Below are positions 23,175 through 29,300 of a stretch of 44,288 bases of DNA, piece after piece. The stretch is taken from positions 1 through 44,288 of the forward strand of contig JAFSKK010000052.1 in the NCBI GenBank assembly GCA_017448965.1, given 5' to 3'. The notes beneath the pieces are model-generated. The model saw only the letters and a list, made by a program, of their open reading frames with translations, was not told the DNA's origin and ran no database searches. A program made the position numbers and the translations under genes. This DNA is from Bacteroidaceae bacterium. GTDB lineage: Bacteria; Bacteroidota; Bacteroidia; Bacteroidales; Bacteroidaceae. Positions within the stretch are counted from its first letter, which is position 1; the number at the start of each line of letters is the position of its first letter.

Positions 23175-23768
23175 TTGACCGCCTTGAAGAAAAAGAACGA
23201 CATCATCATCCCCGAAGGCCTCCACGAAGTGCTCCTGCACGCCTGTTGCGCCCCCTGCTCCTCAGCCATTGTCGAGTGGATGCTCCAGCACGACATCCGT
23301 CCCATCATCTTCTACTTCAACCCCAACATCTATCCACGCGAGGAATACGACATCCGCAAGAACGAGAGCAAGCGTCATGCCGACCATCTCGGCATCCGTT
23401 GGATAGACGGCGACTACGACCACGAAGCGTGGCTCCGACAGGTGCAAGGCCTCGAACACGAACCCGAACGCGGTTCCCGCTGCCTCCAGTGCTTCCAGTT
23501 GCGCCTCATCGCCACCGCCCTCCAAGCCCGACAACTCGGCATCACCTACTTCGCCACCACCCTCGCCTCCTCACGCTGGAAAAGCCTCGAACAGATCACC
23601 CAGGCAGGACAAGCAGCAGAATCTGCCGTCGAAGGCACTCGCTTCTGGGCACAGAACTGGCGTAAAGGTGGGCTCCAAGACCGCCGCAACCAACTCCTGC
23701 GCGACTACCAATTCTACAATCAGCAATACTGCGGCTGCGAATTTAGCATGAACAAACAAGAGAAATAA
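23175..23768 (+). CDS. queH: Epoxyqueuosine reductase QueH
   Basis: Reduces epoxyqueuosine to queuosine in tRNA, the last step of queuosine synthesis, replacing QueG. The 197-residue protein has the QueH (DUF208) cysteine set: HACCAPC near residue 30, CLQCF near 100, and YCGCEF near the C-terminus, which bind the FeS cluster and a metal. No ATG is available: the frame opens with TTG at 23175, and a second TTG at 23184 would give MKKKNDIIIPEGL. I favour one of these two, with the first recorded. It directly follows the outer-membrane protein gene. Confidence 0.92.
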   Translation: MTALKKKNDIIIPEGLHEVLLHACCAPCSSAIVEWMLQHDIRPIIFYFNPNIYPREEYDIRKNESKRHADHLGIRWIDGDYDHEAWLRQVQGLEHEPERGSRCLQCFQLRLIATALQARQLGITYFATTLASSRWKSLEQITQAGQAAESAVEGTRFWAQNWRKGGLQDRRNQLLRDYQFYNQQYCGCEFSMNKQEK

Positions 23769-23790
23769 AATCCTTGTTTGCTTATTTCTT
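23753..23790 (+). terminator. Two mutually exclusive hairpins at the queH stop codon
   Basis: CAAACAAG (23753-23760) pairs perfectly with CTTGTTTG (23773-23780), and AGAAATAA (23761-23768, containing the stop codon) pairs perfectly with TTATTTCT (23782-23789). The arms interleave, so only one stem can form fully at a time. There is no GC-rich stem or U-run, so termination is only a guess. Confidence 0.4.
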
Positions 23791-23838
23791 CCGCGAATCA
23801 AGAAGCCTGTCCTTGACAATTTGGCAAATGGACCAAAC

Positions 23839-23990
23839 GCGGTCAAAGTGGTCAAGGTCAAGATGGTCATTTTCATTTTCGGATTCGGTCATTTGCTCAC
23901 TATATATAAATATAAAATATTTATTATAGTGGCGGATTTTGACACTTGAAAAACGATTTTGACCAAAATGACCATGACCATCATGACCGC
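23839..23990. repeat. Concentric palindrome of GGTCA pentamers around an AT-rich core
   Basis: The left arm 23839-23869 carries GGTCA at 23841, 23850, 23856 and 23865. The right arm 23960-23990 carries TGACC at 23960, 23969, 23975 and 23984. Spacing is 9-6-9 in both. Both arms and an inner palindrome CACTATA...TATAGTG (23898-23931) share the same centre, between 23914 and 23915. The core 23898-23930 is almost pure A+T. This looks like an operator, iteron or origin-type site. No gene in the gap 23769-24250 is convincing. Confidence 0.88.
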
Positions 23991-23995
23991 GATTG

Positions 23996-24016
23996 TATCT
24001 TTGAGTTATACCTTTG
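23996..24016 (+). promoter_or_regulatory. Two overlapping -7 elements next to the GGTCA palindrome
   Basis: TATCTTTG at 23996-24003 and TACCTTTG at 24009-24016 point right, immediately after the palindrome. Neither has a TTTG at -33. That suggests activation by whatever binds the pentamers, or loss of the original context. Confidence 0.5.
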
Positions 24017-24064
24017 CATCGTCGAAAATGAGGGCGAAACGGTGACCCCGTGCAGGGAGAAGGG

Positions 24065-24106
24065 TGCACGGCACGCACGAGGAGACCTGCACGGCACACG
24101 CGAGGA
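24065..24106. repeat. GC-rich 23-bp direct repeat, possible small RNA
   Basis: tgcacggcacgcacgagga (24065-24083) and tgcacggcacacgcgagga (24088-24106) are near-identical with a 23 bp period. They lie in a GC-rich block 24040-24130 that stands out from its AT-rich surroundings and is downstream of two -7 elements. No credible ORF covers it. It could be a short non-coding transcript or a remnant of a lost mobile gene. Confidence 0.4.
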
Positions 24107-24190
24107 TGCAGAGACGGGGCGATCGACAATCGAATAGTTCCCATTTAAAAAAGAACGATGAAAGGATGGAGGAGTTTCGGGAAAAAAACG

Positions 24191-24198
24191 TACCTTTG
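24191..24198 (+). promoter_or_regulatory. -7 element of the thioesterase gene
   Basis: TACCTTTG, with a predicted start near 24205. There is no good -33 box. Confidence 0.6.
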
Positions 24199-24250
24199 TA
24201 GGATTTTATCTGCGAAACAGATGAAGAACTGGGATAAAAACAATAAGAGT

Positions 24251-24682
24251 ATGATTGAAGTTGGAATGAAACACACGAGCGAATTGGTGGTGAGCGAGCC
24301 GGTCACTGCCATTCGGATAGGATCTGGCGATATGCCAGTCCTTGCCACACCTGCCATGATGGCTTTGATGGAAAATGCCGCTATGAGGGCTGTCGGAGAT
24401 GCAATTCCAGAGGGTTGCACCACCGTTGGCGGTCATATCGAATCGTCACACTTGAGTCCTTCGAAAATTGGTGACAGGGTTACGGCCACCGCTGAAGTGA
24501 CGAAGGTGGATGGCAAGAAGATTGAGTTCAAGGTGATGGCTCACTCGGGCGACAAACTGATTGGAGAGGGCACGCATTTGAGGTTTGTTGTGGACAAAGA
24601 GCGGTTCATGTCAAAAGTCAACTCCTCGCTTCCAGCAGTTTCTCCAGACGCACCACTTCCTGCTTGTACTCCTCGGCCTTGA
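24251..24682 (+). CDS. Hotdog-fold thioesterase (FlK-like)
   Basis: A 143-residue hotdog-fold thioesterase of the FlK/fluoroacetyl-CoA-thioesterase-like group. Its pattern is MIEVGMKHTSELVVSE, ATPAMMALMENAAM (central helix with the acidic residue), TTVGGHIESSHLSP and GTHLRFVVDKERFMSKV. Such proteins hydrolyse acyl-CoAs; the natural substrate is unknown. I prefer the ATG at 24251, which has an A-rich upstream region, over 24221, which would add MKNWDKNNKS. The conserved part ends near RFMSKVN; the last ~20 residues (SSLPAVSPDAPLPACTPRP) are read from DNA antisense to the end of uvrB and look like run-on sequence. Confidence 0.82.
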   Translation: MIEVGMKHTSELVVSEPVTAIRIGSGDMPVLATPAMMALMENAAMRAVGDAIPEGCTTVGGHIESSHLSPSKIGDRVTATAEVTKVDGKKIEFKVMAHSGDKLIGEGTHLRFVVDKERFMSKVNSSLPAVSPDAPLPACTPRP

Positions 24683-28682: not shown

Positions 28683-28755
28683 GCGGAAATAGCTCAGTTG
28701 GTAGAGCACAACCTTGCCAAGGTTGGGGTCGCGAGTTCGAGTCTCGTTTTCCGCT
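28683..28755 (+). tRNA. tRNA-Gly (GCC)
   Basis: A full cloverleaf: acceptor GCGGAAA/TTTCCGC, anticodon arm CAACC-TTGCCAA-GGTTG with anticodon GCC, and TtgCGAGTTCGAGTCTCG arm. No encoded CCA. It is identical to the copies at 29047 and 29192. Confidence 0.96.
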
Positions 28756-28801
28756 CTCTCTGTAAAAAGAGACATTTCTTTGACACAATGACAGCAAACA
28801 T

Positions 28802-28882
28802 GCCCACGTGGCGGAATGGTAGACGCGCTCGTTTCAGGTGCGAGTGTTGAGAGACGTGCAAGTTCGATTCTTGTCGTGGGCA
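28802..28882 (+). tRNA. tRNA-Leu (CAG)
   Basis: Acceptor GCCCACG/CGTGGGC, anticodon arm CTCGT-TTCAGGT-GCGAG with anticodon CAG, and a class II long variable arm. CCA is not encoded. Confidence 0.94.
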
Positions 28883-28892
28883 CTAAAAGAAT

Positions 28893-28974
28893 GGAGAGGT
28901 GGCGGAATGGTAGACGCGCTACTTTGAGGGGGTAGTGGGCTCAGCCCGTGGGAGTTCGAGTCTCCTCCTCTTCA
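28893..28974 (+). tRNA. tRNA-Leu (GAG)
   Basis: Acceptor GGAGAGG/CCTCTTC with one G-U pair, anticodon arm CTACT-TTGAGGG-GGTAG with anticodon GAG, and a long variable arm (gtgggctcagcccgt). CCA is not encoded. Confidence 0.93.
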
Positions 28975-29046
28975 CTCAAATCCAAAAAGAAGACTCTGGA
29001 GAGAGTTCCTTCAACAGACATTGACATACAATGCATCCAAGCATTT

Positions 29047-29119
29047 GCGGAAATAGCTCAGTTGGTAGAGCACAACCTTGCCAAGGTTGGGGTCGCGAGT
29101 TCGAGTCTCGTTTTCCGCT
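29047..29119 (+). tRNA. tRNA-Gly (GCC), second copy
   Basis: Identical over its full length to the tRNA-Gly at 28683-28755. Confidence 0.96.
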
Positions 29120-29191
29120 CAAAAAAATAATGGTTCATAATAAATTAAGGGATTTTTGTGATTTTTGTTTGCGAAAATGGAAATCACGTGT

Positions 29192-29264
29192 GCGGAAATA
29201 GCTCAGTTGGTAGAGCACAACCTTGCCAAGGTTGGGGTCGCGAGTTCGAGTCTCGTTTTCCGCT
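29192..29264 (+). tRNA. tRNA-Gly (GCC), third copy
   Basis: Identical over its full length to the tRNA-Gly at 28683-28755. The 72-nt spacer before it is AT-rich with several TTTTTG words. Confidence 0.96.
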
Positions 29265-29300
29265 CATCATTAGACATTCGTTTTTTCATAGCATTCGTGT

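Follow-up and report, generated by a model that had tools for sequence, protein, structure and literature searches.

RESULTS

A palindrome with mirrored pentamer arrays lies downstream of queH

The DNA analysed (the window) is a stretch of 44,288 nucleotides from a Bacteroidaceae bacterium. Between its queH and uvrB genes (23768-24618) lie a palindrome, a leader repeat and a gene for a FlK-like thioesterase. The queH stop, at 23768, is separated from the next gene by 389 to 482 bp, depending on whether the thioesterase start is placed at 24158, 24218 or 24251, so the original prediction of some 480 bp around the palindrome without a gene is fair. The GGTCA pentamers of the left arm start at 23841, 23850, 23856 and 23865, and the TGACC pentamers of the right arm at 23960, 23969, 23975 and 23984, the start-to-start distances being 9, 6 and 9 (hereafter 9-6-9) in both. 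The arms share a centre (23914.5) with the pair CACTATA (23898-23904)/TATAGTG (23925-23931), and a fifth, inner GGTCA is paired with TGACA (23940-23944). The mirrored arrays around an A+T core, first proposed from the letters alone, were confirmed where they had been placed (Table 1), and the two −7-like boxes reported to the right of the palindrome (TATCTTTG and TACCTTTG) are present; the near-match TCCATTTG on the left is given as claimed in that first description.

Table 1. Coordinates of the palindromic element and the adjoining repeat in the window
Feature	Position	Strand	Basis
Whole palindromic element (two iteron arrays, linkers, A+T-rich core)	23838..23991	+	DNA fold and motif positions
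Left iteron array, 4 × GGTCA at 9-6-9	23841..23869	+	Motif positions
Right iteron array, 4 × TGACC (minus-strand GGTCA) at 9-6-9	23960..23988	-	Motif positions
Fifth inner GGTCA, left half	23887..23891	+	Present in many, not all, rows of alignment A1
Inner TTTTGACA, right half	23937..23944	-	Present in many, not all, rows of alignment A1
A+T-rich core palindrome CACTATA...TATAGTG, candidate melting region	23898..23931	.	Alignment
Promoter-like box and G-rich leader repeat beside the element	24005..24126	+	DNA repeats at other places in the same genome; membership in the element uncertain

Folded as DNA, the element had a z-score of −8.7, a value equalled by none of 200 dinucleotide shuffles, and when the window was shuffled 200 times by mononucleotide, not even one exact 9-6-9 array appeared. 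So strong a fold is also what an RNA-level hairpin (a terminator or a structured RNA) would show, but this explanation is scarcely credible: no Rfam family was reached at threshold (searches up to E 5 gave only matches far below the gathering scores), the copies described below stand in differing orientations to their neighbours, and what is conserved is a set of direct repeats, a feature dispensable for a hairpin.

The palindrome belongs to a family dispersed in Bacteroidales genomes

With the 401-bp region as DNA query, 24 of 101 genomes were matched at E ≤ 0.01, a figure in which the window's own genome is counted, along with matches that are short or fall on the second repeat. The exact TGACC pattern at 9-6-9 occurred in at least 119 stretches of the genome collection; among the matches listed, 26 of the 119 had the exact mirrored arm too, their record titles naming Prevotella, Prevotellaceae, Bacteroidaceae, Bacteroidales or Parabacteroides, and many being ruminant by title. 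A covariance model (R1) made from 41 copies, the window being one of them, matched positions 23839-23991 (E 2.8e-36) and found palindromes in 16 of 45 same-genus genomes, at ∼50 distinct places (as read from the match table, in which nearly every place is matched on both strands) and with 1-7 copies per genome. In viral contigs nine matches to an arm were found; the mirrored arm was missing in every case, the best candidate having 8 mismatches.

In all, 95 distinct palindromes were collected. Spacing was exactly 9-6-9 in 88 of their 190 arms (a share raised by loci that had been fetched by that spacing), 9-7-9 in 15 and 8-6-8 in 10. The first base of the word was mostly G, T or A, and its majority was equal in both arms of 90 of the 95 palindromes (shuffled mean 51.5, maximum 67); the arms therefore change together. 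An A+T-rich core was present in the aligned members, with conserved ends and a variable but self-complementary A+T interior. Full palindromes lay in intergenic places beside unrelated genes and in varying orientation to them, and so are not remnants of one coding sequence. Neither objection foreseen at the outset, namely that the pentamer spacing might recur in no second genome and that the arms might be coding remnants, was borne out.

In relatives the palindrome lies near one end of islands encoding a DUF3987 protein

In relatives, palindromes were found near one end of islands of ∼7-13 kb with the order HU-HIG gene, palindrome, variable cargo, DUF3987 primase-helicase gene, a single array, often a 130-aa ORF, and an endolysin-like ORF. 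The order was complete in L328, L331 and L488, while palindrome and single array, about 5-12 kb apart, flanked a DUF3987 gene in L328, L329, L331, L488, L489, L490, L501 and L502. Single arrays between the DUF3987 gene and the ∼130-aa ORF were first met in loci fetched by motif. Pfam identified HU-HIG in six islands (L328, L330, L331, L488, L490 and L501); it was not found in L489, and in L329 and L502 the palindrome is at the contig edge. The 130-aa ORF was not found in L329 and L333, nor an endolysin-like match in L490, nor the single array in L330; L501 has a DUF5675 ORF in place of the endolysin-like one. The endolysin-like name derives from a PHROG 873 match of the L331 protein, and neither this ORF nor the 130-aa ORF had Pfam matches. 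The cargo is partly defence-like, comprising type II and type III methyltransferases, a weakly nuclease-like protein and a PDC-M30 pair (M30B E 2e-113) in L330, an XRE/ImmA pair with an RNase_T/DEDDh protein in L331, and DNA methylases in L501 and L502.

In two genomes without the L331 block (G015 and G034), a lipoprotein gene (SusD-like by eye) adjoins the ThiF gene. A third, G022, had looked empty as well but lacks half of ThiF, so the empty ThiF site rests on G015 and G034 only. A common site at a PPIase gene was also considered; L328 and contig C30 of the window's own genome are not at one site, because the paralogues they adjoin are different (41% identical).

The arrangement admits the idea of an unusual transposon that ends in the arrays (TGACC arm, cargo, DUF3987 gene, GGTCA arm), the palindrome being an insertable form with the ends joined. 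The near arm of the palindrome and the single array do form inverted repeats around cargo and DUF3987 gene, and none of the 13 L331 ORFs of at least 90 aa had an integrase, resolvase or DDE domain (Pfam; the other islands were partly scanned). Moreover, genome G025 carries a solitary element of ∼190 bp that the otherwise very similar flank of G016 lacks, with GGTC(A/T)TTT at both edges. Against this stand the conserved ends of the core, unlike a junction of random target DNA, and the 130-aa and endolysin-like ORFs, which accompany the island yet lie outside the arms. The difference between G016 and G025 is also accommodated equally well by insertion and by deletion between short repeats, and a neighbouring tandem repeat of 20-odd bases differs too; among the 30 loci of this site, at an RNA-methyltransferase gene, these two are the pair alignable across an edge (G015 and G044 have a palindrome in common there). 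Of the features of a MITE, the inverted ends are present, together with one empty/filled pair whose GGTC(A/T)TTT repeat is ambiguous. That the arrays are transposon ends was judged quite unlikely.

The DUF3987 gene is followed by an array matching the palindrome of the same island

DUF3987 genes were detected in 36 of the 45 same-genus genomes (E 1e-10). Palindromes occurred in nine of the ten genomes with a close DUF3987, compared with seven of the 35 others (Fisher p 1.1e-4, the cut for 'close' having been set after the search results were seen). The tenth genome, G036, has a partial palindrome (L041), and seven of the 16 palindrome-bearing genomes of the genus are without a close DUF3987. 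Fourteen close DUF3987 genes of the genus, found by protein and not by motif, have their 3′-end in the sequence; an array lies no more than about 60 bases from the stop codon in 13 of them, L304 being the one without. After the genes of some more distant DUF3987 clades there are other repeated words (GTTGCAG, GTTACAG and others), and after some none.

The single array scored 0.80 against the arms of its own palindrome and 0.38 between islands (eight islands, all 40,320 pairings, p 5e-5; left out were L123, in which the palindrome arm is cut short, and L110, L120, L330 and L505). The island's own palindrome ranked first in six of the eight, second for L328 and fourth for L502, and in L329, L489 and L501 the single array is identical to one palindrome arm.

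The island protein has a DUF3987 domain (Pfam, E 4e-14), a BT4734-like N domain below the Pfam cut-off, and AEP-primase motifs (DhD, xxH and D) that are recognisable in all 14 DUF3987 proteins, four rows being irregular (DhD two columns off; K, not a small residue, before xH). By motifs and domain it would be classed as a BT4734/DUF3987-type primase-helicase. Weak Pfam hits hint that its C-terminus may be of the WH type. Searches of the PDB with the protein and with the alignment gave no match up to E 1; DUF3987 relatives were confirmed in no viral contig (alignment A2) and found in no plasmid. DUF3987 has been predicted to be a helicase, with a WH domain that might recognise origins (Kazlauskas et al. 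2018, PMC5862659). The island protein resembles the BT4734-like AEP primases/DUF3987 helicases in the features just listed, while the available part of that paper gives neither an origin nor a recognition rule.

A residue of the C-terminal helix region covaries with the first base of the array

The C-terminus of the DUF3987 proteins includes a helix-like stretch (...[HR]NxVX-QMLKNW...) in which residue X tracks the first base of the words in the array after the gene. Proteins with R had 74 words starting with G, 17 with T and 1 with A; those with Q had 28 A, 2 T and 2 G; those with H had 15 T, and those with K had 18 T and 1 A. From 55 rows at the start, seven were dropped for having no NGTCA word in the bases read (including L110 and L488, whose arrays lie slightly further on), two for having one word (L487 and L500) and one, contrary to the trend, for falling outside the helix pattern (L480, K with TGGG). 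This left 45, of which 41 have R, Q, H or K at X, the remaining four having I, I, T or S. Pairing R with G, Q with A and H/K with T, by majority, gave the correct base in 37 of the 41 proteins (permutation mean 16.1, maximum 29 in 100,000; the permutation ignores relatedness and the residue code was set after seeing the data). In three of the four misses the array has two words in equal number, the one true miss being L485 (R with TTTG). The pairs R-G and Q-A are textbook major-groove contacts.

On a tree built without the C-terminus, the base label changed 17 times among 39 rows. Independent pairs drawn from the tree numbered seven for and none against the association of A with Q (p 0.016), about seven for and none against that of G with R (p 0.016), and about 4.5 for and none against that of T with H/K, which was not significant (median p 0.06). 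A human-faecal record encountered later (MT839699.1) has R at X (...AVRQMLKNW) and GGTCA ×4 at 9-6-9, as the rule predicts. The replication protein of the island appears to read the palindrome by a simple amino-acid-to-base rule. That record (L527) is an unannotated scaffold of 4 kb, labelled 'Bacteriophage sp.', in which the DUF3987 gene is followed by an exact 9-6-9 GGTCA array and then by ORFs that are DUF5675- and amidase-like by eye.

The copy in the window is probably an orphan

No relative of the HU-HIG, DUF3987, 130-aa, endolysin-like or RAYT-like proteins was found in the window (tblastn, E 1e-4). The close DUF3987 island of the same genome (C30; L306 and L333) is of the T type, and the G-type site of the window is therefore without a detected partner in this assembly, which is 86% complete. 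The palindrome of the window is thus probably an orphan or remnant, a site that is present while the genes of its island are not detected. The original prediction had suggested that a mobile element might have been lost here and left its control region behind, and this fits.

An array within 1.4 kb downstream of queH was found at two of 30 queH loci, those of the window and of G036; in G002, G018 and G041, uvrB directly adjoins queH. Beside queH, G036 has a G-type DUF3987 gene, a 130-aa ORF and the array GGTCAAAGTGGTCAAGGTCATTTTGGTCA (L039 2768-2796), which differs from the left arm of the window in one spacer only. Derivation of one from the other was considered and is not claimed, because the family DNA at the two sites lies in opposite orientation and the G036 contig ends within the island.

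Most palindromes are solitary, and few adjoin RAYT-like genes

Neighbours were counted for 58 palindromes with at least 1.4 kb of sequence on both sides. A HU-HIG relative lay within 1.5 kb of 15 of them; DUF3987, endolysin-like and RAYT-like genes each lay within 1.4 kb of one (overlaps occur), and 42 had none of the four that near. In the finished genome G303 there are five palindromes, four of them nearly identical over ∼150 bp; the left flanks of these four diverge almost from the first outside base, while part of the right flank is common to three and reaches the HU-HIG gene in two.

The nearest description of odd palindromes in Bacteroidetes, as far as the available text goes, ties them to RAYTs (Quentin et al. 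2018, PMC6006769), and reports atypical structures beside subclass 2.6 genes. A RAYT-driven, REPIN-like element was accordingly considered. In L074 and L110 a RAYT-like gene starts about 80-100 bp from the palindrome, and the cargo of island L489 includes another, about 6 kb away; the near-identical copies dispersed in G303 would suit such an origin, and several other RAYT-like genes adjoin other long palindromes. RAYT as the driver, suggested by L074 and L110, was weakened by the counts, however: the neighbour count above found a single case (L110, at a contig edge, and L489 are outside it), presence of palindromes and of RAYTs was not associated across 45 genomes (p 0.69; close RAYTs, p 0.46), and G009 and G037 have palindromes without any RAYT at E 1e-5. 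Furthermore, the RAYT-like proteins score below the NCBIfam cut-off, NGTCA words stand at the foot of the hairpin where no GTAG/GGAG-type tetranucleotide was seen (alignment A1, by eye), and neither the array after the DUF3987 gene nor the residue-base rule would be explained. Like REPINs and TnpA_REP subclass 2.6 (PMC6006769, available part), the present elements are palindromes scattered between genes in Bacteroidetes, a few of them near a RAYT-like gene; they differ in their direct-repeat iterons, their foot, their low copy number and their association with DUF3987. A RAYT-driven origin is on balance very doubtful. The RAYT-like genes beside other palindromes are those of L245 (G005), L246 and L234 (G008), L225 (G022) and L199 (G016), with arm words such as GAAAGT, TTGCA, GCCAAA and others.

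Alternatively, the DUF3987 or the HU-HIG protein might bind the arrays to regulate genes or organise DNA, as at an operator or partition-like site, with no role in replication. The frequency of HU-HIG neighbours would suit this, as would the position of the palindrome in L328, L331, L490 and L501, where the HU-HIG and cargo genes on its two sides diverge, and the promoter-like stretch in the right flank of several copies. It is nonetheless unlikely: the protein whose residue tracks the base is of the primase-helicase type, which acts at the origin in PICIs, inverted iteron sets around A+T DNA are origin-like, and the single array is downstream rather than upstream of its gene.

DISCUSSION

The palindrome is probably the cognate iteron site, most likely the replication origin, of integrated Bacteroidales islands that encode a BT4734/DUF3987-type primase-helicase. 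This protein would bind the two inverted NGTCA arrays through its C-terminal helix region, the intervening A+T core would melt, and the primase-helicase would be loaded; the single array just after the gene would be a second cis site. The palindrome is read as origin-like and the single array as a second site because of the AEP/DUF3987 character of the protein and the likeness to PICI origins. Features of iteron origins were found in the regularly spaced short direct repeats, the A+T-rich region beside them in aligned members and, by covariation only, a replicon-encoded initiator of matching specificity. Among the possibilities first offered for the arms, the iteron cluster has held up, in that they behave as iterons, and for the multimeric binding protein proposed with it the primase-helicase of the mobile islands is now a candidate.

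In PICI origins, A+T DNA next to the initiator gene is flanked by two sets of iterons (PMC6092414, available part). Common to those of SaPIs and other PICIs and to the present islands are short iteron sets that flank an A+T region, iterons directly 3′ of the initiator gene, and accessory genes (PMC6092414). Here, in contrast, the two sets are inverted and palindromic and lie beyond the cargo, separated from the one set 3′ of the initiator by about 5-12 kb, whereas in PICIs both sets are directly 3′ of rep/pri; many palindromes are solitary, and no integrase was found in L331. The far-side position of the double array argues against an origin, as does the solitary state of most copies, which a pure origin does not explain. 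PICIs are induced and packaged by a helper phage; among the DUF3987 records here, one, from human faeces, is labelled Bacteriophage sp.

In satellite phage P4 one protein, alpha, is both primase and helicase, reads DNA through its C-terminal domain and has two cis sites lying apart, ori and crr. The island protein, with its palindrome and single array, would be organised likewise; the likeness is one of organisation only, the words being different and the double array here being inverted and palindromic. The alpha protein and its ori are mentioned in the available text of PMC6092414.

It is also conceivable, although a tentative and rather unlikely proposal, that the palindrome is both origin and mobile unit, islands without an integrase seeding solitary but complete origins over Bacteroidales chromosomes, to act as landing pads, decoys or latent origins. 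If so, solitary origins would serve any incoming island whose DUF3987 protein reads the same first base.

No description of the element was found in the listed titles and abstract starts of open-licence papers on Prevotella repeats, HU-HIG/DUF3987, BT4734/VirE/satellites and Bacteroidales satellites/iterons, and no paper naming an origin site or recognition rule for DUF3987 proteins was found in the literature searched. The PINSR of Prevotella intermedia is likewise an intergenic repeat of similar length in Prevotella, but is 188 bp long, is present in 177-184 copies and is without terminal inverted repeats (PMC4755523, available part). Were a residue-base rule to hold in a primase-helicase initiator, origins could be paired with initiators in metagenomes; one residue and one base make it directly testable with natural DUF3987 variants. 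The mirrored NGTCA arrays and the array after the DUF3987 gene also provide a sequence tag for an island family of rumen and human gut bacteria, some members of which carry defence genes.

Other repeats in the window and its genome

The promoter-like box and G-rich leader to the right of the palindrome form a repeat of ∼110 bp, 79-82% identical, at four places in the same genome: the window, C7 (L044 4426-4547), C31 (L046 4653-4762) and C44 (L045 4541-4650); further coordinates are those in the relative G036 (L047 1237-1346). It is possibly a small RNA or leader. On C31 and C44 it precedes a gene of the MutS2 type, with MutS_V and Smr domains, and in the window and on C7 it lies to the right of a palindrome. 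That of C7 (L044 4200-4340) is of a second type, with GTTACA words and an A+T core; a distantly related DUF3987 gene lies ∼6 kb away, and in a more distant clade (L320 and L340) this word stands after DUF3987 genes. The window also has a cluster of five tRNA genes (28683-29265; Gly, Leu, Leu, Gly, Gly), all three Gly anticodons being gcc.
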